A DNA stretch of 17,067 nucleotides from assembly GCF_000188695.1 (NCBI RefSeq), contig NW_004754931.1, positions 1,189,960 to 1,207,026 on the forward strand, written 5' to 3'. The DNA is from Salpingoeca rosetta. Lineage: Eukaryota; Opisthokonta; Choanoflagellata; Craspedida; Salpingoecidae. The position numbers and the translations under genes are program-made. The notes under the pieces were generated by a model that did no database searches, had not been told where the DNA came from, and was given only the letters and a program-made list of their open reading frames with translations. Below, piece after piece: positions 1 to 16,885 of the stretch (its first letter is position 1; each line of letters begins with the position of its first letter).

Positions 1-62
<62 letters not shown>

Positions 63-243
63 TGTGTGTGTGTACTGTGTTTGTTTTGGTTGTGGACGTG
101 TGTTGCTGATGTAGTTTGTGCTAGTCCTGGCTGTACATATGCACTGTGTACTTGTGAGCCTCTGTGCGTGTGCATGTTCGTGTCTCATCGTGGGCCCTAC
201 TGGTACGTGTGTGCGTGTGTGTGCTGCGTGGTTGCGGCTGCAG
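1..243 (+). repeat. Left edge: (TG)n microsatellite and partial acetyl-CoA synthetase intron
   Basis: Bases 1-73 are an almost pure TG run with one interruption near 60. Bases 74-243 are TG-rich sequence without recognisable coding, ending in a cag acceptor at 241-243. I read all of it as the 3' part of an intron of the acetyl-CoA synthetase gene. The long open frames across it are products of the repeat and encode only Cys/Val alternation. Confidence 0.8.
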
Positions 244-466
244 GAGTTGAGGGCGGACTCCGCGCCGGTGATATTGATCTCATCGACGCCATGGCCAAGG
301 TGCGCTGTTCACCACAGAACTGCTGCGGCGGTGTTGCTGGGTGGCAAATGTGTTCAGTGCACAGCTGTGTCTTTCAGAGAGATGCATCTGCCCAACGCAA
401 AGCTGTGTCTTCCACAAATGCAGTCCTCACCCATACACATACATACAACTCACACAACACACACAC

Positions 467-537
<71 letters not shown>

Positions 538-734
538 GCGCACATGTACGCATGGGCAGGAACGGCCGTACTGCGAGCCGGAGATGCTGTTCAGCGAGGA
601 GCCGCTTTTCATGCTGTACACGTCCGGATCAACGGGGCAGCCAAAGGTCGGCGGACACCTGCTTGGCTTCAGTGTCATATTGGGCCGCGGGGGGGGGGTT
701 GGACATGCCACGATGGCTAGGCGATAGTCAACCC

Positions 735-829
<95 letters not shown>

Positions 830-2949
830 AGGGGCTGGTGCATAGCACTGCTGGGTACATGACGCAAGCTGCTGTGACGCACCGCGCAATCTTCGACTAC
901 CAGCCCGGCGACGTGTACGCGTGCGTCGCCGACGTTGGCTGGATCACGGGTCACTCATGTGCGTTTTAAGAGTAGGGCAATGGTGTGTGGTGTGCGGTGT
1001 GTTGCGTTTGTGTGTTTGCGTGTGCTTTGGTTGCTGCAATGCTGGGTCACATTTGTCGCATGCAACGCAACGCCAATGGCCAGATGTTGTGTACGGCCCA
1101 CTTGCCAACGGTGCAACAACGCTGCTGTTTGAGAGCATCCCCACCTACCCCGACAGCGGCCGCTACTGGGAGGTGCGCGTGGCGGTGTGGTGTGACATGA
1201 CGTGATTTGTCGGCAATGAGTTTTATTCCATCACGTGTCAATCCCACACACGTGCGTGCTTTGCCGTGCACATGCGCGCGTACATGTGTGTGTGTGTGCG
1301 TTGTGCGTGCTCACGCCTTGCTTTGTGCACGCACATTGCAGATGGTTGAGCGGTACGGAATCAACCAACTGTACCTGGCGCCTACGGCCCTGCGTCGCCT
1401 CATGAAAGACTGTCAGTGAATGCCAGTCACACCATGGTTTGGAGCATGTGCTCCTGCCCTGTGCTCACTGTGCAAACCATAACCCTGTGTGGCATTATTC
1501 ACCTCTCTCGGCTTTGTTGTGTCTTGCGTCAACCACCCCGTGGTTCGGGCTGTTTCCGCACCCATCCGTGGCCTTCTCACGCTACACCACCACCACCACC
1601 GCCACCACCACCATCATCCAACCACCACCATCACCGCAAACAGCTGACGAGTTTGTGACCAAGTACGACCGCTCCAGTCTTCGCGTCCTCGGATCAGGTG
1701 CGCGCTTGTGTGCACGCGTCTGTGCGTGCGTACATGTGCATGCAAACACGCGTTGTAATGACCTGTGCACTCCCGATCATCACGGCATCTCGCATATGCA
1801 TTCAGGTCGTCATTGCTTCATTCTCACATGCAACCCTGAAACCTGGTGCCTTCCGATGTGCTGTTGCCCGTTGTGCTTGTGATCAGTCGGCGAGCCACTG
1901 AACCCCGAGGCGTATCGCTGGTTCCATGAAGTGGTCGGCAACGGAAAGTGTTCCATCGTCGATACGTGGTGGCAGACAGGTGCGTGAATGCATGCAAACC
2001 CACGCACTACTTTATGTGCGCGCACGCGCGCGTGAGTGGCTCCTGAATTGCATTCACGGCTGCATCCTTCTCATCACCTCACCATACGCACGGCTTCATT
2101 CCTGTTCATGCAGAGACGGGTGGTGCCATGATTTCACCGCTGCCTGGTATGAAGAACTGCAAGGCGGGATCAGCAATGCAGCCGTTCCTTGGCGTTGTGC
2201 CTGTCATCCTCGACAATGACGTACGCTTCACTGATTCGCCGCCTACGGCATATGGTTGTTGTGCCACGCTTCTAGCAACATGGGCATGTTCCGATCATGC
2301 TGCACCCCATCAACCGTGTGTCCTGCTTAACGCTCACGTGCTTTCTTCCACACGCTCGTCCTTGCGTTCATCCATGTACTGTGTGACTGTTTCTTTACAG
2401 GGAAACGAGCTGCAGGGCAACAACGTGGAAGGCGTTCTGGCCATGAAGCATGTACGTGCGCGAACACATGATTCACCTGCCCACAAGCTCGATAGCGCGT
2501 GTGTCGTGCCTTCACATTGCGTCGTGCCTTGCTTAGCCGTATGTGTTCATGCCCATGAATTCCCTACCCTTCAACTGCGCATTCTCCAATATGGGGACTT
2601 ATTGTCACAGCCCACGCCTGGCATGGCGCGCACGATCCACGGGGACCACGAGCGGTACACGAGCACGTACTGGGGCGTGTATCCGGGGTACTACTTCACG
2701 GGTGACGGCGCGCGGCGGGACGAGGACGGGCACCTGTGGATCACGGGACGCGTCGACGATGTCATCAACGTCTCCGGCCACCGCATGGGCACTGCCGAGG
2801 TGCTGCGATGATCTTGATGGTGGTGGTGGTGGCAGTGGCAGTGGCAGTGGTGGTGGTGGTGGTGGTGGTGTTCGTGTGTGTGTGCTCGTGCAGTTGCTGC
2901 GCCCTCTCCTGTTATTCCTTCGTCCTTGTTCTCACCACCACCCCCCCTC

Positions 2950-2980
<31 letters not shown>

Positions 2981-3197
2981 GTCCACCACCGCCACCACCA
3001 CCATCATCACCAGATTGAGAGCGCGCTGCTTGAGCACGGCGGCGTTGCGGAGGCCGCTGTTGTCGGATATCCTCACGACGTCAAGGGCCAAGGTCTTGTG
3101 TGCACGCGCTTGGTGCTGAGAGCGTGAAGAGAGAGAGGGAGAGAGGGGGATTGTGGCACGTTGCAGGTTGCCTGCAGACTGTGGTTGTGTATTCGTG

Positions 3198-3233
<36 letters not shown>

Positions 3234-3545
3234 CTCTCTCTCTCTCCCTCCCTCACTCACTCCCACACAAACACACACACATGATGTAGGCGTGTATGCG
3301 TATGTGATTCTGAAGGCCGGGGAGCGCGTGACGGCGGAGACAGCGGACGAGCTGAAGGCGGCGGTGCGACGCAGCATTGGCGGGCTGGCCGTCCCAGACG
3401 TCATCCAGATCACGCCAGACCTGCCAAAGACCCGCTCCGGCAAGATCATGCGTCGCATCCTCCGCAAAATCGCCGCAAACCAGGTGCCATCGTTGGTGTG
3501 TGTGTATGTGTGTATGTGTGTGTGTTGTGCGTGTGTGTGTGTGTG

Positions 3546-3577
<32 letters not shown>

Positions 3578-3873
3578 GTGTCGTGATGGTGCAGGGTCGT
3601 TGGTTCATGTCCACATGACGCGTGCCCTTGATGTGCGTTGAGGGTATGTGACTCCTGCTTGACTTTGCGTGAAATTGTTTCCTGCCTCGCTGTTCATTAT
3701 CTTTACGCTCACCGTGCATGTGTCTCCGCGCATGTTTCCCGGATCCTGCCACGTCTGGTCATTATACCTTCCAGACGGATGACCTTGGTGATGTGACAAC
3801 GTTGTCCGACCCCGAGATTGTGCAGCATATCATTGAGAGGCACCAGGCCTTGCTGGAGCGCGACGTCGACTGA
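244..3873 (+). CDS. ACSS2: Acetyl-CoA synthetase (AMP-forming), ACSS2/AcsA family, 5'-truncated, 13 visible exons
   Basis: This enzyme activates acetate with ATP and CoA to acetyl-CoA, AMP and PPi, normally in cytosol and nucleus. Exons that join in frame are 244-299, 560-646, 832-958, 1084-1172, 1342-1411, 1644-1697, 1887-1979, 2114-2220, 2401-2451, 2611-2799, 3014-3092, 3290-3483 and 3775-3873 (TGA). They encode about 430 residues. Motifs in order are the P-loop-like [11 protein letters not shown] (617-646 into 832), [35 protein letters not shown], the acetate-pocket motif [23 protein letters not shown] followed by [20 protein letters not shown], and the C-terminal [17 protein letters not shown], whose lysine is the usual acetylation-regulated residue. 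Family members have about 650-700 residues, so roughly the first 250 lie left of the window. The GDIDL and SYVVYGPL segments fit the eukaryotic ACSS2 type better than the bacterial type. Family assignment is very sure; the first exon boundary is the weakest. Confidence 0.95.
451..531. repeat. (CA)n microsatellite in intron 300-559
   Basis: A CA run, nearly pure from about 471, ends 28 bases before the acceptor of the 560-646 exon. It belongs to the intron between the [11 protein letters not shown] and ERPYCEPEM exons. Confidence 0.95.
737..830. repeat. (CA)n microsatellite running into a splice acceptor
   Basis: The run begins about 90 bases into intron 647-831 and continues practically to the acceptor (acatacacag). 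The usual polypyrimidine tract is therefore replaced by alternating CA. Confidence 0.95.
1585..1639. repeat. (CAC)n-rich tract in intron 1412-1643
   Basis: Triplet repeats of CAC/ACC with CAT variants lie just upstream of the acceptor at 1642-1643. Translated they give poly-His or poly-Pro, which does not fit the enzyme between its KD and DEFVTKYD segments, so the tract is intronic. Confidence 0.85.
2800..3013. repeat. Intron with opposed (GGT)n and (CAC)n tracts
   Basis: This intron of the acetyl-CoA synthetase gene holds a GGT/GGC tract (about 2817-2870) and then a CAC/CAT tract (about 2935-3011). The two are close to reverse complements, so the intron RNA could fold on itself and bring donor and acceptor together. 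The flanking exons (GTAE before, IESALLEH after) join at phase 0. Confidence 0.85.
3200..3280. repeat. (CA)n then (TC)n tract in intron 3093-3289
   Basis: A CA run (about 3200-3230) is followed by a TC run (about 3231-3247) and CA-rich sequence to the atgtag acceptor at 3289. The pyrimidines probably serve as the polypyrimidine tract. Confidence 0.9.
3495..3577. repeat. (TG)n microsatellite in intron 3484-3774
   Basis: A TG run with TATG and TGCG interruptions begins about 12 bases after the donor of the last acetyl-CoA synthetase intron. Confidence 0.9.
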
Positions 3874-5539: not shown

Positions 5540-6881
5540 ATGGTGTTGCTGTCAAAGGCGGAGCGATGGGCGCTGCTTCGCAATGCACTGAACAAGTGTG
5601 CTGCCGTGCGTGGACAGGACGGCCAAGGAGAGGCCATCCTCACCGCTGTACAAGGTGTGCGGGTGTTTTGTGCAGTCATGGTTGTGTTCGCTCGTCATGA
5701 CGCGCTGTGCCTCTCTCTCTCACTGTCTCTCTCTGTCTCTGTCTCTCTCTCTCTCTGTCTGTCTCTGTCTCTCCATCTCTCTCTCTCTCTCCATCTCTCT
5801 CTCTCTCTCTCTCTCTTGCATCGGTCCATCGATCCATCATGGAGTCTATCATTTGCTACCCAACGCTCACAGTGAGCAACCCGTGTACCTCCTTCTCCCC
5901 CACCAACAGCGGCTGAATCGAACGGCAACGTTCAAGTGCTTGTGGACAAGCTGGCCGAAGTCGTTGGCACGTGGCCGGACAGCACCCTGCTATATGTTGC
6001 CGTCGCACACGCCCTGCCGTCGCGCCTGTGCCGTGCGTTTCAGGAAGCAGTGGCCGCGCTTACGACGGGGACGGTGCCGCGAAACACTGCAGCAGCTTCT
6101 GACCACACCAGCGTGCCAGTGGACGGCGCAACGGGCGCTGTCCGTGACCACTGCACCGAGCTGGCAGGCAGCAGCGCCATGCACGCTGCTCTTCGAGCGC
6201 GTGTGGAGGCCACCGCCAGCGTAACCGTGTTTCTGTCGTCCCCGTTCGGGGGCCTGGAGGAGGAACGAGCCTTTTTCGTCGAGCGGTACCTGCCTTCCTT
6301 GCGAACGCTGTGCGAGAACAAGGGCGTGGCCCTCTCCCTGGTTGACCTTCGGTGGGGTATCACAGAGGAGCAGGCGGCACAATTTGAAACGCTGCGCATC
6401 TGCCTGCAGGAGATTGACCGGTGTGACATCTTCGTCGGCTGTTATGGCGCCCGCTACGGCACACGACACAGCTCGTCAAACAGCAGTACGCATTGGGTCG
6501 GCTGCTCCGTTGACAGGGCCATGCCGCAGTACCCCTGGCTTGACAAACACCGCGACAAGGGCATCACGGAGCTCGAGTTCAGACACGGCGTGCTCAACGA
6601 CCCGTGTGCACGCCCATCGCTGTTTCTCTTTCGCGATCCGGCCTATGATGCAGCCAAGGCGGAGCTGTATGCCCACGACCCAGCGCATAAGGCGAAGTAC
6701 ATCAACACGCACGAAGACAGTGCCCAGCTGCGTCGAGTCTTGGAGCAGGAGATTCGTGAGCTTGCGTGGAAGCAGCAGCACCTCAACATCACCGCCACTT
6801 CCTATTCCGCCCCAGAGGATGCCGCCAAACACATGTTTGATATCCTCCATGCAACCCTGCAACAGGTGTACGCTTGCGCAT

Positions 6882-6972
<91 letters not shown>

Positions 6973-9900
6973 TGAGTGTGCGTGCGTGTGTATGTGTGGG
7001 TGGGTGTACAGTGTGTGTGCGTGTGTGCGTGTGTGTGCGTGTGTGTGCGTGCGTGCGTGCGTGCGTGCGTGTGTGTGTGTGTGTGTGTGTGTGCAGTATG
7101 TGTGTGCGTGTGCAGTATGTGTGTGCGTGTGTGTGTATGCAGTGTACACATATGGTGTATGCGGTGTACACATCTGTTCTGTGGGCGTGTTTCTGTTCTT
7201 TGATCCGTTTATGCTATTCATGCCACGTACACAACTGTCCTCGATTCCTTCACAATCTCACCCCGTCTTCGCACTTGCCCGCCACATCGCACACCACACG
7301 CCACTGCCACTCGTGCACCATGTGTGGTACAGGTGTTGCCTCGCGAGGGTGTGGCTCAGGATGCAGACGGGCAAGTGCATGCGAGCTTTGCTGCTGTGCG
7401 CCGTGGCTTCTATGTCGGCAACCGTGCCCTCGTGCGGCAAATCAACCTGCACCTCGACCAACACTCGCCTGCGCCGCTTGTTGTTGAGGGCGAGAGCGGC
7501 AGCGGCAAGAGTGCACTGCTGGCAAATTGGGTGCACCAGCACACGTCCCTGCATGCACACGACCGCGTGTTCTGCCACTTCACCGGCTGCGATTCCGCCA
7601 GCACCGCCCTTCGCAACCTGCTGTCCCGCCTTCTTGTGTTCTGTGACCCAGACATGGCAGAGTCGCTCAGCGGCATGACAACACAGCAGCTGTGCGAAGC
7701 GTTGCCTGCATGCATCGCCTCGGCTGCTGACACAGCTCGTGCGCAGCACGCAGGCGCCCGCCTTGTCATTGTGCTGGACGCACTCAACCAGCTTGAGAAT
7801 GAGACGTTCCCCTGGCTCCCTCAGCGGCTGGTGCATCGCCTCGACTGGCTGCCCACCACCTTTCCCGAGGGCGTTGTGCTCGTCTGCTCCACCCTGCCCG
7901 GTCTCTGCCAGGACGCCCTGCGCGCACGTGCGTACGACCGCATCACCACCGCACCGCTCTCCCGCCACGACTGCAAGGCGTTTCTTGAACAACGGCTTCG
8001 CCTTGCCTCCAAGACGCTCATGGCAGCACAGATGGACGTGATTCTGGACAGCCCGCAGTGCGGTAACCCGCTGTTTCTCACGCTGCTGATCGAGGAGCTC
8101 ATTGCGTTTGGCGTGTTTGAAGAACTGGACTCGAAGATTGCAGAACTTGCCGCCTGCACCAATGTCCCAGTCCTCTTGCAAGCTGTCCTTTCTCGGTTGG
8201 AGCAGTCCTTTGGCTCTGTTGGTGGGGCACGTGTGATTGGACAAATCTTCCGGCTGATTGGGGTCAGCCGCGAGGGCGTGCTTGAGCAAGAACTGCAGGC
8301 TGCATGTGGCGTCATGTCGACGACATTCGCACAGGACAGCAGGGCTGATGGTGATGGTGATGGTGATGCAGCGCTGAGCATGAGCGGATTCATGTGGTCG
8401 TCCCTCTATTTCGCCATTCGTCATCTTCTCGTCGTCAAGAGCGGTGAGTGTGCATGCGTGTGCATGTGTGTGCATGTGTGTGCATGTGTGTGCATGTGTG
8501 TGTATGTGTGTGTATGTGTGTGTGTCGACGCACGTTGTCCAGCATGGCAATCTCATTGCCCTCACACTTACCATCGTGGTGGCTGCTGCAGGGCGATTCA
8601 CGTTTCTCCACGACTACATTCGCCAGGCCGTGCACGAGCGCTATTTGTCCACGGAAGAGGAAGTGCGTGGCGCCCACGCCGCCATGGCGAAAACGCTGAG
8701 TCAGCACGCGCTGTTTCTCCACGCCCACAGGAAAACACCCAAGGGGGATCGGGGCGGTAATGATGGTGGTGATGATAACGGCCATGATACTGCTGACGCG
8801 GATGACAGCGGCGGTGATGCTGCTGTTGCTGTTGGTGCTGACGAAGTGGCGGCGACCATTAACGTGCGATATGTGGGGCAGCTGCCCTTCCATCTTGTGC
8901 GCTGCGGACGGTTGCACGAGTGCGTGTCATTGCTGAGCGACTTGGAGTTTGTGGAGGCCAAGTGCTCGTGTGGGCTTGTGTACGACCTGCTGGAAGACTT
9001 TACCGCGTGCGAGGCCGCCATGTCCGCGTCCCAGCTGCGACAGCACCCGACCGGCGCCATGTTCAAGGAACTCAAGCAGATGCTCGCATTCAACCTTCCC
9101 ATCCTCAGCCGTCTGGTGCGTGCATTTGCTTGTGTGTTTGCTTGCTTGCTTTCTTGCTTGCTTCGTTTGTTATATGCTTGTGTGGTTGGTCGGTTTTGTT
9201 TGCGTACGTGATGGCTGTGCGGTTGGTCTGAGCCACAGACACTGCGCGTGCGTGCGTGCGAATGCATTGATCTGGGAAAACATCCAACTTTAAGCACGCG
9301 CTGTGCTTCTCATCGAAACGACGCCACCCACCGCCCCCTGATCCCCCCTTGCCTGCATCAACTCATCCTTTCCATTTTTTTCTCGCACTTCTTGTATCTG
9401 CTGTCAACGACACTTGCTTCCCTGCTTCCACACCCAACGCCGTCAGCCTGGCAACTTCCTGCCTGTTGCTGTGAACCAACCCAATGCGAGCCCCATTCAC
9501 GACCAAGCGCAGCAGCTGATGGCACGCCGCCGTCTGCCCCACTTCAAGTGGATCAACAAGGTCTGTCCTCACAAGGGATGACATGGTGTTGGGGGGAGGG
9601 GATTGCAGCTCTGTATCCATTCATGTGTGGTTCGTCATGGTTGATGCAATCAGCGCTGTGTGTATGCATGTGGCCCTTTGTGGACTCGATGTTGGCGCTT
9701 GTGGTTGTGTGAGCTCACATCACGTCATGCCAATGGTGGCGTGTTCATGGTATGCATTCACACGTAACCAGCCGCAGTCAAAGAGCGCATGCATCATGCA
9801 CATTGAAGGCCATTCCAACCCCGTCTACTGTGCGTCCATCAACCAGCACAGGTGCGCCATGTCGCGTTGCTCTGGTGTCGTGCTGTTTCCGTGCCACTGG

Positions 9901-12900
9901 CCACCCTTGCCTCCGTGCTGGTTTCGGCTTCTTCGTTTGTTGTTGGGTGGTTATCACTGCCCACCCTTGCATCTAACACGTCAGCCTCCTCACCCGTTGG
10001 TGCGTCCCCCCTCCTTTTGTGGCTTGGTCCTGCCGTGTTCATGCGACCACAGGATTGCGTCGGGTGCACGAAATGGAGAGCTCCGCGTGTGGGACGTCAA
10101 GACGGGAACGCTGCTCAACCTCCTTGCAGTGAGTGTGCGTGCTCTGTGGCTCTGTGTGTATGTGTCCATCTCTCTATTCGCAGCATTTGTACCTCCACTG
10201 ACATGCTCTAACACACGCCACATACACACATGCACACACATCACACGTGTGCGACTCGTAGGCGCACCGAGCACCGATCAACGACGTGTGCTGGTTAGAA
10301 GACGATGTGCTGGCAACGGCATCGGACGATGGGTCAATCTGCACGTGGCGCCTCAGCACGGGCACGTGCGCGTCTGTCCAACGAGCAGAAGCAGGGTGAG
10401 CGGATTTACATCTTGAGGGGTTCCACATGGCGTGTGATATGGCAGTGGTCGTCCATCCATGAACACATGACCACTTGCACACATGAGCACATGAACACAA
10501 ACACACATGTTTGTAGATGCAACATAACCTGACACCAACTTGTTGCCTCACCTCACTCGGGATTGCGGTCCACATCACTCCCTTGTTTTCAGAGCTGTGC
10601 AGTCGCTGTTGGTGTTGAGAAAGGCCGGGCTGATGGTGTCTGCGCACACGTACAGTGACCCTCCGCTGTCGGCACACTCCATCGAACCACAGCCAGGCAT
10701 ACTGTGTTTCTGGTCGCTTGACAACGGCACTCTGCTGCACAAGGCGCAGACCAAGGTGTGTACCGCAACCCTCACTCGCCATATCAAGAGGGATTGCGGC
10801 TTTCTGTGTGACCCTAACGCACACGCACACATGCATTACACGTGCGCAACCGCACCAACAACCTTCACACACACATACACACCAAACACACACACACATA
10901 TTCACACACACACACCAAACACACACACATATTCACCCCTCACGCACCTACCCATGCAACACACATGTACACGTAGGACGGGTCGCCCGTATGCGTGTGC
11001 GCAGATGCGAGGCAACAGTTGCTGGCGGTGGACGTGAGCGGGAGTCTCCTCGGCGGGCAGTCTGCGTATGTGTTGTATGATCTTGGACACGCCGCTGCCG
11101 TCTCAGTAACAGAGCGTCAATCGCTGCCTGCGCAGCGCACGCGCCGCGGTGCTGTCAATTCACGCGAACGCACGCACAGGTATACCAACGCGCGTGTATG
11201 TGTGTGTGTGTGGGTGTGAGTGTGTACGTGAATGCATGTGGGCGTTGTGGGGTCTGTACATGCACTCGTATGCGTGTGGGCCTGCCGTGATGAGATACGA
11301 TGCGCAACATATTCCTGTCTTGCATCTACAAGTCATTCATCACCACGGCCGCACACCCACCGCCATTGCTCATTCTCTCATGCAATTGTTGTGCTACCCC
11401 GCACATGTCCCTGTAAAGATTGCGGTCCTGTGCGTTCAGTGCTGACGGCGAACACCTCATCACCATTCACGGAGACGCGCTCATCAAGTACACGCGCGCA
11501 GGCGCCGGCAGTGCAGCGGTGTTTGAGCAGACCTGCATCACGCCCGATGGTGTTCACCAAGGCACGGTGTACTCTGTGGCATACGGTGATGACACCATTG
11601 TGTCTGGTGGCGCCGATAAGCTCGTTGTCGTGTGGAACACGGACCTGACGCTGCGCGCGTGCCTCGTTGGTCACGCCTGGAGCGTGTTCTGCGTCACGCT
11701 CGTTCCTCCACTCTCCTCTGCGTCATCCTTCACCTCCACCACCACCACCACCACCACTCATTCTGCACCGTCCAACCCAGACGCGTGCAATGGCGATGGC
11801 GATGGCGATGGTGGGCGCGGGCTGATTGTGTCGTGCGCTGGCATCTGGGACAAGCGCTTGATGGTGTGGGAGATCCCTGCCAAGGCAAGCACACCATCAT
11901 CAGCAGCTGCAATAGTGCCAGCAACGGCAACAGCATCAACGTCGGCGCCAGTGGTAGGAGGTGTAACGGGAGACGCAAGGCCACCGCACTTTGGTGAGAT
12001 TGTGATGGGTGGCGTGTACACGCCTGATCTGCAGGCGTTTGTGTCCTCTGGGCAGAATGCGCGTGCAACGCTGCAGCTGTGGGATGTGCGCACGACCACG
12101 CGACGGGCAATGGTGTTCAGCCCTGACAGCGGTGACAGCGGCGTGCTGTTCCCTGGAAGCATGGGCAGCGCACCGGCAGTGCTGCCGACGGGTGAGGTGG
12201 TGGTGGCGTCTCGCCGTGGGAAGGTTGGCGTGTTCAGGGCCAAGACCACAGCAGCTGCCTTGGATGCTTCGGCTTCAAACACCCGAGCGAGCACCACGCA
12301 CCAACACACAGAGGAGCAAACACATGACGTGCAGCCCAAACAACAACAACAGCAGCAGCAACAACAACTGCAGAAACAACGTGAGGAAAGGGTTGCTGGC
12401 GAAGAATGGGAGGTGGTGACCGACACGCCCGCTGCAAGTGCGTTTGGCAACATGACAAGCAATGGCGACATTCTCCGCATGCCTGGCGGCCAGCACTATG
12501 TTGTGTGCGACGCTGCTGTGCGGGTGGTGAGCATCAAACAGCCTGCCGAGCCGCCACAGGAGCTGCTGAACGGCACCGGCCGCATTGCCGTCGTCTCGCC
12601 CTCGGGCAGACGTGTGGTCATCACGGGGCAGTCGCGGGCACAGGTGTGGGCGCTGAAGCCACCGCGCCTCATCAAGAAACTTCGCAATCCGCACGTGCCC
12701 AACAGCCGGCTGTACGGCGCTGCCTACTCGCCCGATGGCCGGCTGATTGCGCTTGCTGACCACGCACGGTATGTCACCGTGTACTGCGCGCGCACCTTCC
12801 GTGTGCTGCACGCGTTTCGCATGTGGGACCGTGCGTACCGGTGTACGTTCACGCCCGATGCGCGCATGGTGCTGTGCGGCGGCGACGACAAGACGGTGGG

Positions 12901-13185
12901 CCTGTGGGACGCCATCAGCGGGGTTGAGGTGGCCCGGTGCTACGTGGGCGCGGGCGTGGGCACGGTGAGCATTGGGCCCGGTCTGCGCGTGGTGGCTGGT
13001 GATGATCTTGGACGCGTCAACTTCCTGGATCTCGTCAACTGCGGCGTTGGGGTGCCGGTTGTGACGGCAACGTACGAGTGGGATGCAGACGCCAACGCAT
13101 GGTCTGCAGAACCACTCATCACGTGCCCGCACACTGGCAAGCGGTTCCCCCTGCCCGCCGAGTGCCACGCAGTCATCACCACTGT

Positions 13186-13249
<64 letters not shown>

Positions 13250-14376
13250 GCAACAGCAACCCAAAATGGCTTGGCATACAATGGCTCGACACGAAGTGGC
13301 CCACGCCCCATGTCTTCAGCGCACAAAACGGCGTCCGCGACAGCTGGCTCGAGTGCCACGGGTGAGGAGCAAGGCGTTGACTGCCCTGCTGCTGTGCTGC
13401 CCTCGGCTGCATTTGAACACGCAGCGTTGGTGATTGCGTCGCCCTTTGATTCGACCAAACACATGCGTGTGAATCCATTTATTGCAGACATGCGCAGCAT
13501 GAGGTACGATGCCCGCGCAGTGGCGCGAAGTTTGCTTCTCAACGACGTGGATAGGGCGTGGCTGGCGGAGGACCTTGTGTGCGTGCGGTTTGACCAGGGC
13601 AGGTACGCGGGGCAGTGCCAGTGGATGCAGCGGACCAAGGTGTACCTGGATGCGCCTGTGCTCACAGCGGAGGAAGGCATGCGGCTGCCAGCCGACACAC
13701 CCGTGATTGCACTGCATCCAAACTACACGCCGATGTGGAGTGCAACCCTATCCACCGATCGCTCAGCTGACAAGGTCGGTTGGTTTGGATGGTTGGTTTG
13801 GATGGATGGATGGTTTGTGGGATGGTTTGGATGGTTTGGATGGACGGACGGATGATTGGTTGTTGGATGGATGGATGGACGATTGGTTGTTTGATGTTGA
13901 ATGGTTTGAATGATTCAAGCGACACGTGTGGTTTACGCGGCATCATGCATTGGACGCACGCACACAGTGCGTGTGTGTGCTCACACGACTTGCTTCTTGT
14001 TCCATCTTCATTCCCTCCCACCTAACAAACACTCATGCCCAAACACATGTACACCGTAGGTCTATCTCAACTTTTACGACGGCGACGACGCGTACCAGAC
14101 GTGGGATAACGTTGTGCTGCCTCGCCACCCGTCGCACGACACGTGGGAGGCGCAGCCGGGGTGCTGGGCATGCAAGGACATACACGCTGGCCGGTATATC
14201 CACGGCAACATGATTGCATACCACAGGGGAGGTGAACCCGTGCCAGGTGTCTCAGACCAGGACGACCCCTCCACGGCAGCACCACAACAACAGCAGCAGC
14301 AGCGGCAGCAGCGGCAGCAGCAGGTGGAGTCTTCACCGAAACACAGTGATGCAAAGCCCGAGATCCGCGCTCGATC

Positions 14377-14427
<51 letters not shown>

Positions 14428-15152
14428 TTTGGTTGTTTGCTTGTTTGGTTGTCACAGCCACACCGACTTTCTTTTAGCATGCTGATTGAAACTGTCCCAT
14501 CTCCCACCTCTTCCTAACCTCACTCCACACTGGTTACCCCAACCCCATTGCGTACACGTGGACCTCGCTGCTGTGTATGTGTGTGTGCGTGTGTTATGTG
14601 CGTTGTATTGTGGCAGGCACGCTGATGGGTCGGGTGGGCATGGTGCGGCTCAATGTCGCCCGCTTCGTCCGCAACTGCTCCACAGCCTCAGGTGCGGACC
14701 TTCATGCACAGCCGGCAGGGACGAGGGAAGGCGGCACGAGCGCTGGCGTGGTCAGGGGTAGTAGTGGTGGACGCGGTGGCGGTGTTGAAGGCGACGACGA
14801 TGCAGTGCTGCTGCGACGGCGACTGGCAGAGGAAGAGGCAGCTGCTGCCGAGCTTGATGGCGGGAAGATTGTCGTGTACACGAGCGGCGTTGTTGCGCGT
14901 GCGGAGGAGCGGGAGACGTGTGCGCGTGTGCTTGCGTTGCTGCGAGACGGGGAGCATGTTGAAGTTGAAGAGCGCGATGTCGCTGCGAGCGCGGCGTTTG
15001 CGCGGGAACTGCTTGCACGGTGCGGTGTGTGCTGCAGCGTGCCGCAGGTGTTTGTCAATGGGCGGCACATTGGCAACGGTGCCACGCTGGATGCCATGGC
15101 CCAGACAGGCAAGCTGCAAACGCTGCTGTCCACCATCCCGCGCACAGCGTGA
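5540..15152 (+). CDS. DUF4062-NACHT-WD40 STAND ATPase with C-terminal glutaredoxin-like domain, 13 exons, 2,226 residues
   Basis: This is a predicted signal-transduction ATPase: a NACHT NTPase switch attached to a WD40 sensor, as in NWD1-, TEP1- and NPHP3-related proteins. Exons are 5540-5654, 5910-6865, 7333-8443, 8592-9115, 9447-9560, 9778-9851, 10053-10128, 10262-10395, 10593-10755, 10977-11179, 11419-13774, 14060-14378 and 14617-15152. Every intron is GT...AG, every junction keeps frame, and the total of 6,681 bases is 2,227 codons including the stop. Order by residue: helical N-terminus 1-140; DUF4062 about 142-284; NACHT from about 404, P-loop GESGSGKS at 410-417, Walker B aspartate D506; winged-helix and HDYIRQAVHERYL segment to about 760; WD40 about 948-1700; uncharacterised region about 1700-2130 with 21 consecutive Thr (1747-1767) and Gln tracts; glutaredoxin-like domain about 2131-2222. 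No signal peptide or membrane span is evident, so it is probably cytoplasmic. Exon 13 could be a separate gene, but matching phases and the open upstream frame argue for one protein. Confidence 0.88.
5655..5909. repeat. Intron 1 of the NACHT gene with (TC)n tract
   Basis: About 5710-5817 is almost pure TC with TGTC and CCATC interruptions. It lies in the middle of the first intron, well upstream of the caacag acceptor at 5909. The transcript therefore contains a CU-rich stretch of about 100 bases that could bind PTB-type proteins. Confidence 0.9.
6218..6645 (+). other. DUF4062 domain (residues about 142-284)
   Basis: The segment opens with the beta strand SVTVFLSSPFGGLEEERAFF and contains LVDLRWGITEEQA (RWGI at residues 186-189) and CDIFVGCYGARYG. 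These are hallmarks of the DUF4062 module found before NACHT domains in NPHP3- and NWD1-like proteins, a fold thought to resemble TIR or nucleoside-binding Rossmann-like domains. No catalytic function is established. Confidence 0.88.
6866..7332. repeat. 467-base intron with two long (TG)n runs
   Basis: TG runs occupy about 6883-6967 and, with GCG and CAG interruptions, about 6975-7142. GCGT units repeat near 7048-7070. Acceptor is tggtacag at 7332. This is the longest intron in the window and its length is almost all repeat. Confidence 0.92.
7465..8004 (+). other. NACHT P-loop NTPase domain
   Basis: Walker A is GESGSGKSALLANW (lysine K416, serine S417), preceded by PLVVE as in STAND ATPases. 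Walker B is LVIVLDALNQLEN with D506. A sensor-1-like strand is VVLVCSTLPGL, followed by the linker RITTAPLSRHDCKAFLEQRL. Key nucleotide-binding residues are present, so the ATPase is expected to be competent. Downstream, GNPLFLTLLIEELIAFG is the typical helical GxP segment of NACHT proteins. Confidence 0.93.
8444..8591. repeat. Intron with eight-base TGTGTGCA repeat
   Basis: From about 8449 to 8500 the unit TGTGTGCA recurs, then TGTGTGTA units to 8526. The repeat begins within a few bases of the strong donor gtgagt at 8444-8449. The join restores GRFTFLHDYIRQAV, a conserved segment after NACHT domains. Confidence 0.88.
9116..9446. repeat. 331-base intron with (CTTG)n-like tract
   Basis: About 9128-9170 holds TTGC/CTTG units like those in the divergent promoter at 5427-5452. 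The intron joins ILSRL to PGNFLPVAVNQP, a joint typical of NACHT-WD40 proteins just before the propeller. I saw no coding sequence in it. Confidence 0.75.
10129..10261. repeat. Intron with TG-rich donor side and CA-rich acceptor side
   Basis: The 5' half is rich in TGTG (10131-10165) and the 3' half in CACA (10211-10247), giving complementary arms that could pair in the RNA. Donor is gtgagt, acceptor cgtag. Confidence 0.8.
10756..10976. repeat. Intron with CA-rich repeats
   Basis: Between about 10820 and 10975 the intron contains CA-rich units including a recurring ACACACCAAACACACACACAT segment (about 10880-10930), with acceptor acgtag at 10976. It opens with gtgtgt. Confidence 0.85.
11180..11418. 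other. Intron joining WD40 exons
   Basis: This 239-base intron begins gtatac and ends gtaaag. Near its donor it is TG-rich; the rest holds nothing I recognise. The join gives RLRSCAFSADGEHLIT, a normal WD40 strand, which supports the unusual aaag acceptor. Confidence 0.75.
13187..13249 (+). repeat. (ACA)21 coding repeat: 21 consecutive threonines
   Basis: Twenty-one uninterrupted ACA codons encode Thr1747-1767, followed by two GCA/ACA variants. The run is in frame within the 11419-13774 exon with good coding on both sides. Pure triplets imply recent expansion and probable length variation. In other frames the same DNA would read Gln or Asn. Confidence 0.9.
13775..14059. repeat. Intron 11-12 of the NACHT gene with (GGAT)n/(GGTTTGGAT)n minisatellite
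   Basis: From 13780 to about 13915 the intron consists of GGAT, GGTT and GGTTTGGAT units with a GGACGGAC stretch. The remainder to the acgtag-like acceptor (accgtag, 14059) is unremarkable. The reading frame stays open into the repeat, so an unspliced product would end in Trp/Gly/Asp-rich sequence. Confidence 0.85.
14379..14616. repeat. Intron starting directly in a (TG)n microsatellite
   Basis: The donor gt at 14379 is itself the first unit of a TG run of about 46 bases (14379-14424), so there is no distinct donor consensus beyond gtgtgt. The intron ends in tggcag at 14616. The junction codon G|GC keeps frame into the last exon. Exact donor choice within the run is ambiguous only outside the reading frame, since the first GT is needed for phase 1. 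Confidence 0.8.
14862..15140 (+). other. Glutaredoxin-like domain, GRXCR type, without CxxC
   Basis: Residues about 2131-2222 read KIVVYTSG, then ERETCARVLALLRD, HVEVEERDV, AFARELLARCG, VPQVFVNGRHIGNG and LDAMAQTGKLQTLL. This is the beta-alpha-beta, cis-proline (VPQVF) and GxxIG pattern of glutaredoxins. It most resembles the GRXCR1 and plant CPR-type group, where helix 1 has one Cys about ten residues after the TS motif instead of CPYC. The cysteine-rich tail of GRXCR1 is absent; the protein stops five residues after the fold. Function may be glutathione binding or protein contact; redox catalysis is doubtful. Confidence 0.82.
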
Positions 15153-15479: not shown

Positions 15480-16885
15480 ATGCTGTTGCAGCGTTTGTGG
15501 TGCAGCGGTGGCCGCCGATGCTGCAAGCCTACGATCAACGCTGCGCGTGGCATTGCCACGACGCGTGTGAGTGGATATGAGAAGATTGCCGCGCCTGGAG
15601 AGGTGTCGCCGCGACGCGTGGTACCGGATGACATTGAGAAGCCGTCGTACGTTCGGGCGCTGATTGCACGAGCAGCCGACATGCACACGACCCAGTCACG
15701 CATCAAGCCGCTGCAAGGGGAGATGCTGGGACGCATGAGGGACGCAGGGAGGCTTGCCGCAGATACGCTGGCGTACACGGCATCGCACATCGCCCCTGGA
15801 GTGACGACAGATGCGCTGGACGAACTGGCGCACGAGTTTATTGTGTCGGCGGGCGCGTATCCGTCGCCGCTGGGGTACATGGGCTTCAAGAAGAGCATCT
15901 GCACATCAGTGAACAATGTCATTGTCCACGGTGTCCCGGATGACCGTGAGCTCCAAGAGGGCGACATCATCAACATCGACGTCACCGTCTTCCTCAACGG
16001 CGTGCACGGTGAGATCGCCGTGCGTGGTGGTGGTTATGATCTGGATACAGTGTGGTCAGCTCTTGTTGTTGTTGTGCGTGTTGTATTGCTGTTGTGGGGT
16101 ATTGTTATTACGGGTGTTGTGACTCACAATGCGCCATTCTTGCTCGCTTTCCCTGTCTCTGCCTGTCTGTGTTTCGCTGTCTCTCTCTCTCTCTGCCTCT
16201 CTCCACCCTCTCACGTCCAGGGGACACGTCGCGAACGTTTGCGGTTGGCGCGGTGGACCGGTCTGCCGAGCGGCTCATCGAAGGCGCAGAGAAGGCGCTG
16301 CACGATGCCATTGCGACATGCGGGCCAGGCGTGCCCTACTGCGCTATAGGCGAGGCTGTGGAGGCTGTGGCAGACTTCTACAGGCTGAGCATCTGCCCCT
16401 ACTTTATTGGTCACGGCATCGGACCCTCCTTCCACGCGCCCCCGGCAGTGCTGCACTACTACAACGACGAGGACTACGTCATGAAGCCCGGGCACGTGTT
16501 CACGATTGAGCCCGCGCTGAACGAGGGCTCGCCGGAGTTCCGCATCTTGGCCGACGAGTGGACGGCGGTCACGCTGGACGGGCAGCGGTCGGCGCAGGCC
16601 GAGCACACCGTCCTCATCACCGAAGAGGTACTCGTGTGTGTGTGTGTGTGTTTGTGTGTGTGCGCGTGTGTGTGTGTGCGCGTGTATGTGTGCGTGCGTG
16701 TGTGTGTCTGTGTGTGTCTGTGTGTGCGTGTATGTGTGCGTGTCTGTGTGTGTGCATTGCATGGGCACATGGCTTTGCATGCTTACCATCCCAACCTTTG
16801 CCACCACCACGGCCACAACTCCATGCAGGGCGTTGAGGTGCTGACGCGCCGGAAGGACGAGGACTGCGAACGGGCGGTTGAGTGA
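15480..16885 (+). CDS. METAP1D: Methionine aminopeptidase type I, probably mitochondrial (METAP1D)
   Basis: The enzyme removes the initiator methionine from new proteins, here probably in mitochondria. Exons are 15480-16008, 16221-16627 and 16829-16885 (TGA), giving 330 residues, the usual length for METAP1D. The N-terminus [16 protein letters not shown] is Arg-rich and free of acidic residues for about 30 positions, as in a mitochondrial presequence. Metal ligands are all present: D167 (NIDVTV), D178 (HGDTS), H241 (FIGHGIG), E273 (FTIEPAL) and E304 (QAEHTVLIT); the substrate-binding histidines H150 (VHGVPDD) and H248 are there too. The H-G junction codon is split by intron 1 (G|GG). It lacks the zinc-finger N-terminus of cytosolic METAP1. 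The start is the first ATG after the purine-rich leader. Confidence 0.94.
16009..16220. other. METAP1D intron 1
   Basis: A 212-base intron with a strong gtgaga donor and a CT-rich 3' half (about 16138-16210, with TCTCTC and TGTCTC units) acting as polypyrimidine tract before gtccag. Confidence 0.85.
16628..16828. repeat. METAP1D intron 2 with (TG)n tract at the donor
   Basis: The intron begins gtactcgtgtgtg and stays TG-rich, with GCG, TATG and TCTG interruptions, to about 16755. The acceptor is atgcag at 16828. Both flanks are phase 0 and give [13 protein letters not shown]. Confidence 0.88.

Follow-up and report, generated by a model that had tools for sequence, protein, structure and literature searches.

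Background

DUF4062 has been described as a TIR-like NADase family that is active in human TEP1, and in NWD1, NWD2, NPHP3 and TEP1 it lies beside NACHT and an APAF-1-like helical domain (excerpts of a 2026 preprint, PMC13174449). Plants supply a different set of switch proteins: among their nucleotide-binding leucine-rich-repeat proteins (NLRs), integrated glutaredoxin domains have been published for barley, sorghum and potato (excerpts of PMC4759884) and for barley and sorghum (excerpts of PMC5819176), and thioredoxin integrated domains appear in excerpts of both papers. For choanoflagellates, proteins with NACHT and leucine-rich repeats (LRRs) have been reported that carry no Death or CARD domain (excerpts of PMC6040629). 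Here we describe a locus of the choanoflagellate Salpingoeca rosetta in which the DNA encodes, one after another, a DUF4062 domain, a NACHT ATPase, APAF-1-like helices, WD40 repeats and a glutaredoxin-like domain. It lies on the forward strand of a window of 17,067 nucleotides, the whole stretch that was analysed (assembly GCF_000188695.1, contig NW_004754931.1, positions 1,189,960 to 1,207,026), and all coordinates below refer to this window unless a contig is named.

The public annotation divides the locus into two genes, PTSG_01838 (1777 amino acids, DUF4062-NACHT-APAF1_C-WD40) and PTSG_01839 (379 amino acids, glutaredoxin-like). We found no mention of either in the literature searched. Our preferred reading, which we hold with a probability of roughly 0.55, is that a single gene at 5540–15152 encodes one STAND protein, with a degenerate glutaredoxin-like tail that would dock a partner or act as bait, and a TIR-like NADase domain as its output.

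A gene model that spans two annotated genes

Neither the domains nor the order in which the DNA encodes them is in doubt; the dispute is over how they are divided into genes. An earlier note on this DNA, made from the letters alone, had proposed a fused protein of 2,226 residues, and that model could be rebuilt from 13 exons (Table 1) as 2226 codons with no internal stop. PTSG_01838 was regenerated letter-perfect when exon 6 was started at 9772, six bases before the 9778 of the 13-exon model, and when 13162–13250 was removed as an 89-nucleotide intron, after which the frame shifts and runs into a stop at 13365. PTSG_01839 is identical to residues 1848–2226 of the 13-exon model and begins at an ATG at 13490; therefore introns 13775–14059 and 14379–14616 are common to both models. 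The note had also claimed that exon 13 (14617–15152), which is open and coding, joins 14060–14378 at phase 1 through the split codon G|GC, and this was borne out, the same junction being contained in PTSG_01839. Thus the dispute concerns only the continuity of exon 11, where the two public models lie just 124 bases apart.

We scored splice sites with a matrix built from the 14 introns of the window against 1495 GT and 717 AG sites. The disputed donor scores -7.56, which 76% of the GT sites equal or better, as do 122 of the 163 GT sites within exon 11. At positions -1 and +5 it reads A and C, where the window introns have G in 12 and 11 of 14 cases, respectively. The putative intron is also shorter than all 14 of these introns (133–467 nucleotides). 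It includes 21 AAC units at 13186–13248 that lie in the coding frame and would be translated as poly-threonine; repeats of this kind may prompt false introns in automatic models.

The strongest evidence comes from the bases that the annotation treats as intergenic. Frame models for three-base periodicity were trained on open reading frames (ORFs) from 12 other S. rosetta stretches: 78 ORFs of at least 250 amino acids were found, 23 simple-repeat ORFs were removed, overlapping ones were skipped, and 31 were kept. Over exactly 13366–13489 the frame of exon 11 is favoured by 20.2 bits, a score reached by none of 610 noncoding windows (maximum 16.4), which were drawn from the 14 introns and one spacer, overlap each other and are hence not independent. 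Compared with the other exons of the gene, 163 of 170 windows score no higher than the gap. An earlier run over 13366–13496, which takes in seven bases of PTSG_01839, likewise left none of 571 noncoding windows equal to the target. For exon 12 the same test prefers the model frame by 20.9 bits, and for exon 13 by 58.8 bits.

Codon usage has the same sign with less force. With training inside the window, the score of the target was equalled or exceeded in 28 of 565 noncoding windows, and 13 of 85 coding windows did not exceed it; with training on the 12 other stretches, the corresponding counts were 9 of 571 and 9 of 85. Among these tests periodicity gave the best separation. Just upstream of the gap, at 13262–13365, the codon scores favour the exon 11 frame (0.143 versus -0.114 for the public frame), and in periodicity the public frame lies a modest 3.9 bits behind. 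The weight of the argument lies with the gap, so this small margin does not alter the odds. We discounted the open frame over the break as evidence: 78 open codons have a chance of about 26%, and 177 of 504 noncoding windows are open, so an open frame is little proof where noncoding DNA is this poor in stops. On the sequence tests together, a single gene is clearly the more probable arrangement, and the annotation seems to have cut one gene into two.

The glutaredoxin-like domain of exon 13

The check by C-terminal profile search that the note had suggested gave a match to Pfam Glutaredoxin (PF00462) of 32.1 bits (cut-off 22.9, E 1.4e-7), spanning profile positions 10–60 of 60, and a search of the S. 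rosetta genome agrees (34.3 bits). The motif (T/S)VP marks the cis-proline loop of this family, and exon 13 encodes it as SVPQVF. Alignment A4, which sets the domain beside an S. rosetta GRXCR gene and glutaredoxin 3 of E. coli, shows that it retains YT at the strand start, the SVP loop and C2150. However, of the two cysteine positions in CPYC the domain keeps just the second, C2150, and has Arg2147 at that of the nucleophile, which leaves it with no CxxC or CxxS active site with an N-terminal nucleophilic cysteine. With arginine in place of this cysteine, the domain is unlikely to catalyse redox reactions and would make better sense as a module for docking or sensing, placed on the WD40 side of a TEP1/APAF-1-like switch.

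The note had also raised a GRXCR-like function, and in part the comparison agrees. Outside this locus, the best-matching S. rosetta sequence found is a GRXCR gene on contig C7 (G000:C7:1125000-1134900, locus L022, minus strand, about 5000–3480), with 45% identity over 85 residues; the alignment includes one TGA that by eye falls within an upstream intron. The exons of that gene, joined by eye, encode a glutaredoxin domain (4.4e-11) and, after it, the zinc domain GRXCR1-2_C (PF23733, 2.7e-12). This cysteine-rich zinc tail is absent from exon 13, where PF23733 gave no match at E <= 10. A search of viral contigs for glutaredoxins to align returned none.

The DUF4062-NACHT-APAF1_C-WD40 part

DUF4062 adjoins NACHT in the exons, and WD40 matches follow (Table 1). 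In spliced PTSG_01838, APAF1_C reaches 36.1 bits against a cut-off of 22.8 (E 7.5e-9) and WD40 66.6 bits against 27. NB-ARC remains below threshold (12.1 bits against 23.5), and no LRR family is among the Pfam matches listed, which for PTSG_01838 are the best 25 of 33. PADLOC gave one weak match, mads_8, to PTSG_01838 (E 0.004) and none to PTSG_01839. In the alignment with TEP1, numbered by anchoring on R908, R954, R976 and E1008, Glu261 falls at the catalytic E1008. NADase activity of the S. rosetta protein is possible, not established, because the catalytic glutamate is retained while just one of the three active-site arginines is kept. Of 36 DUF4062 candidates scored in the genome, nine exceed the cut-off; contigs C34 and C30 hold four of these nine, with profile positions 1–79 matched.

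Relatives of the exon 11 tail

One protein resembles the tail of exon 11 across the break. This is P0006, whose domains are DUF4062, NACHT and WD40 and whose metagenome contig is presumably bacterial; its last WD40 repeat is followed by CPRCG and then RLNPFV. The S. rosetta counterpart reads CPHTGK and then RVNPFI, and RVNPFI falls inside the 13366–13489 gap. In an alignment across the break (A3), 21 of 94 columns are identical, and the score of the NPF piece was equalled by 52 and 76 of 20,000 shuffles (about 0.3%). We take this likeness to support the fusion weakly.

Beyond NPF, P0006 resembles a separate small-protein domain found in 11 of 195 genomes from the phylum to which Pyxidicoccus belongs. 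These small proteins (L021, 5608–6543; L033; L038–L047) are mostly about 300–350 amino acids long and have this domain in common with the C-terminal portion of P0006; L021, the single one scanned, matched no Pfam family. A profile from P0006 and six of the 11 small proteins, the other five not having been recovered as ORFs, found no match in the S. rosetta tail. Five weak tail matches in the 195 genomes were inspected and judged to be chance. Among plasmids the best E values were 4 and 10, and among solved structures there was no relative of the tail.

Weighing the alternatives

Two genes as annotated, with PTSG_01838 ending at 13365 after the 89-nucleotide intron and a separate PTSG_01839 starting at 13490, is an improbable arrangement that has points in its favour. 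The public records in ncbi, uniref and eukprot all split the locus, and these records stand against a single gene; excerpts of the genome paper (PMC4054682) state that ab initio models were refined using expressed sequence tags and RNA-seq. The acceptor of the disputed intron, CAACAACAG, is good (5.61; 11% of the 717 AG sites are as good), and the public frame is not far behind in 13262–13365. Against this stand the poor donor, the short intron, the coding periodicity of a gap of so few bases, and the first 95 residues of PTSG_01839, which would start midway through an exon whose open frame is that of the WD40 part. The genome paper also fused two other neighbouring models following cDNA PCR, according to its excerpts. 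The fusion claimed in the earlier note thus draws support from frame periodicity, from the donor of the annotated break and, weakly, from P0006, while the public record contradicts it. A very improbable rival reading makes exon 13 a gene of its own or an alternative transcript that begins with the ATG at 14625 or 14640 and perhaps encodes a mitochondrial leader. These in-frame ATGs lie close to the exon start, the 24 residues from 14625 include four arginines and no lysine, aspartate or glutamate, and the exon 13 acceptor is weak, with 61.5% of the AG sites scoring equally well. However, PTSG_01839 splices exon 12 to exon 13, and the donor of intron 12 is phase-compatible and strong (0.27% of the GT sites match its score), such that of the "good splice sites" ascribed to this junction the donor deserves the name and the acceptor does not. 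The note had named an independent start as grounds for rejecting the fusion; among 1877 candidates of about 97–310 amino acids no standalone record matched at E <= 0.01, in a search that detects relatives sharing short exact words only.

A functional redox or glutathione switch, in which the domain would gate the NACHT ATPase through C2150 or through the cluster C2184-C2187-C2188, is quite unlikely. The cis-proline loop is retained, exon 13 encodes five cysteines, four of them within the domain and the cluster just named before the SVP loop, and zebrafish GRXCR1 is reported to act via glutaredoxin activity (cited within the available part of PMC8333275). The active site lacks its motif, with Arg2147 at the nucleophile position, and the Pfam match does not include the first nine profile positions. 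In the same part of PMC8333275, mouse GRXCR1 is described as lacking the dual cysteines and having undetectable glutaredoxin activity, and its fold is put forward as an interaction surface. The redox- or glutathione-linked control suggested earlier is thus unsupported in its catalytic form.

Several further results weigh against the preferred reading of a single STAND protein with a docking tail and an NADase output. The TEP1 active-site residues R908, R954 and R976 correspond to G152, E198 and R220, and only TEP1 hydrolysed NAD+, the human NWD1, NWD2 and NPHP3 proteins being inactive (excerpts of PMC13174449). The likeness of the exon 11 tail depends on P0006 as a single metagenomic protein; A3 omits inserts of both sequences, the uncut best local alignment ends short of CPHTGK, and one antisense control frame scored 31 versus 32 for the real tail. 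A search with the full-length protein, again one that detects short-exact-word relatives only, returned 17 proteins, among which PTSG_01838 is the sole named choanoflagellate one, and no ortholog carrying both parts fused came to light. The weak acceptor of intron 12 belongs here as well, as do two single-sequence structure models of low confidence (mean pLDDT 38.0 and 56.5). In the second of these the order of helices and strands is roughly that of a thioredoxin fold, and Foldseek placed glutaredoxins first, with TM values of 0.30–0.42 to query length and no E <= 0.001 (best 50 of 393 matches); we do not count these models as proof of the fold.

Features of the locus and neighbouring genes

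Table 1. Features of the S. rosetta window, with the disputed break last
Feature	Position	Strand	Evidence
Exon 1 with start codon	5540–5654	+	Start common to PTSG_01838
Exon 2; TIR-like DUF4062 (Pfam stretch 6227–6496), equivalent of catalytic Glu at E261	5910–6865	+	DUF4062 E 5.6e-16; alignment with TEP1 chain 11gz_A, E 4.5e-15
Exon 3; NACHT ATPase, Walker A GESGSGKS at residue 410	7333–8443	+	NACHT E 1e-7, 32.3 bits vs cut-off 26.7; motif
Exon 4; bulk of APAF-1-like helical domain (from 8867 into exon 5)	8592–9115	+	APAF1_C in spliced PTSG_01838
Exon 5	9447–9560	+	Model residues 1–940 identical to PTSG_01838
Exons 6–10; WD40 repeats	9778–9851, 10053–10128, 10262–10395, 10593–10755, 10977–11179	+	WD40 E 1.8e-18 in PTSG_01838
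Exon 11; more WD40 (to about 13030), tail with CPHTGK, (AAC)n and RVNPF, then a stretch with no fold assigned	11419–13774	+	One open frame; periodicity and codon tests
Exon 12; stretch with no fold assigned, then Gln-rich linker	14060–14378	+	Inside PTSG_01839; no Pfam family (E <= 1)
Exon 13; linker, glutaredoxin-like domain (14859–15149), stop	14617–15152	+	Pfam Glutaredoxin E 1.4e-7; alignment A4; Arg2147; SVP loop
Intron of 89 nucleotides in public PTSG_01838, judged a coding repeat	13162–13250	+	Exact reconstruction; donor score -7.56
Public "intergenic" gap separating PTSG_01838 from PTSG_01839, with a coding signal in the exon 11 frame	13366–13489	+	20.2 bits; 0 of 610 noncoding windows

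Downstream, at 15480–16885 on the plus strand, two exons match metallopeptidase M24 (6e-18 and 1.2e-23). By eye this gene is methionine aminopeptidase-like, and its arginine-rich start could be a mitochondrial leader. On the minus strand at about 5490–4700, adjoining the start of the STAND gene, exons with GxxxGxxxG match Yae1_N weakly (23.3 bits, below the cut-off of 27.5), and the gene is perhaps LTO1-like. The plus strand of 1–3700 holds what by eye is an acyl- or acetyl-CoA synthetase-like gene; two pieces of it were scanned and gave no Pfam match. Rfam and tRNA searches of the window found nothing.

Proposed mechanism

If the locus yields a single transcript and protein, its layout would be an N-terminal TIR-like DUF4062 effector, a NACHT switch with APAF-1-like helices, a WD40 sensor and a glutaredoxin-like end. 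By analogy with APAF-1 and with published speculation for TEP1, the WD40 side may keep the switch off. A partner or ligand would dock at the C-terminal domain, acting as a bait and not as a thiol enzyme, and would help to free the switch. The freed NACHT could then oligomerise and line up the TIR-like domains, such that NAD+ would be cleaved. Of the readings considered, we find this one the most parsimonious. A more specific version, which we regard as doubtful, is that of an integrated-bait immune receptor outside plants, in which a dead GRXCR-type domain would sense tampering with glutaredoxin or GRXCR proteins and trigger NAD+ depletion.

If the fusion is true, a close relative of animals has a TEP1- or APAF-1-like switch with a TIR-like effector and, at the sensor end, a putative and probably inactive redox-fold domain. 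Two public gene models would be corrected, whose split conceals this architecture from domain surveys.

Comparison with known systems

Within S. rosetta there is a paralog on contig C24 (L027 and L037; G000:C24, about 831500–850900, minus strand), a DUF4062-NACHT-WD40 gene known from its domain matches. Its DUF4062 is 65% and 53% identical over two exons. In contrast to our locus it has a PDZ domain (2.7e-9) downstream of the WD40 repeats, and the glutaredoxin-like residues were unmatched in the 19.4 kb compared. This PDZ suggests that varied C-terminal modules are carried on the DUF4062-NACHT-WD40 switch, and a PDZ in place of the glutaredoxin-like domain would fit exchangeable C-terminal sensors. 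For the domain of exon 13 the nearest relatives found are GRXCR1 and GRXCR2, from which it differs by the missing zinc tail.

TEP1, NWD1, NWD2 and the APAF-1-like STAND proteins share the order of an effector (DUF4062 or other), NACHT or NB-ARC, APAF-1-like helices and WD40, and TEP1 shares with the S. rosetta protein the position of the catalytic glutamate (excerpts of PMC13174449). However, the word "glutaredoxin" has 0 occurrences in PMC13174449. We found no fusion of a STAND, NACHT, WD40 or DUF4062 protein with glutaredoxin outside plants in the literature, as judged mostly from titles and the openings of abstracts and, for DUF4062 with NACHT or WD40, among the 15 papers listed of 142. The nearest precedent comes from plants, in NLRs that have an integrated glutaredoxin domain. 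These are STAND switches bearing a thioredoxin-fold domain (excerpts of PMC4759884 and PMC5819176), as the protein proposed here may be, but they are built on nucleotide-binding leucine-rich-repeat proteins, whereas that of S. rosetta is built on NACHT, WD40 and DUF4062.

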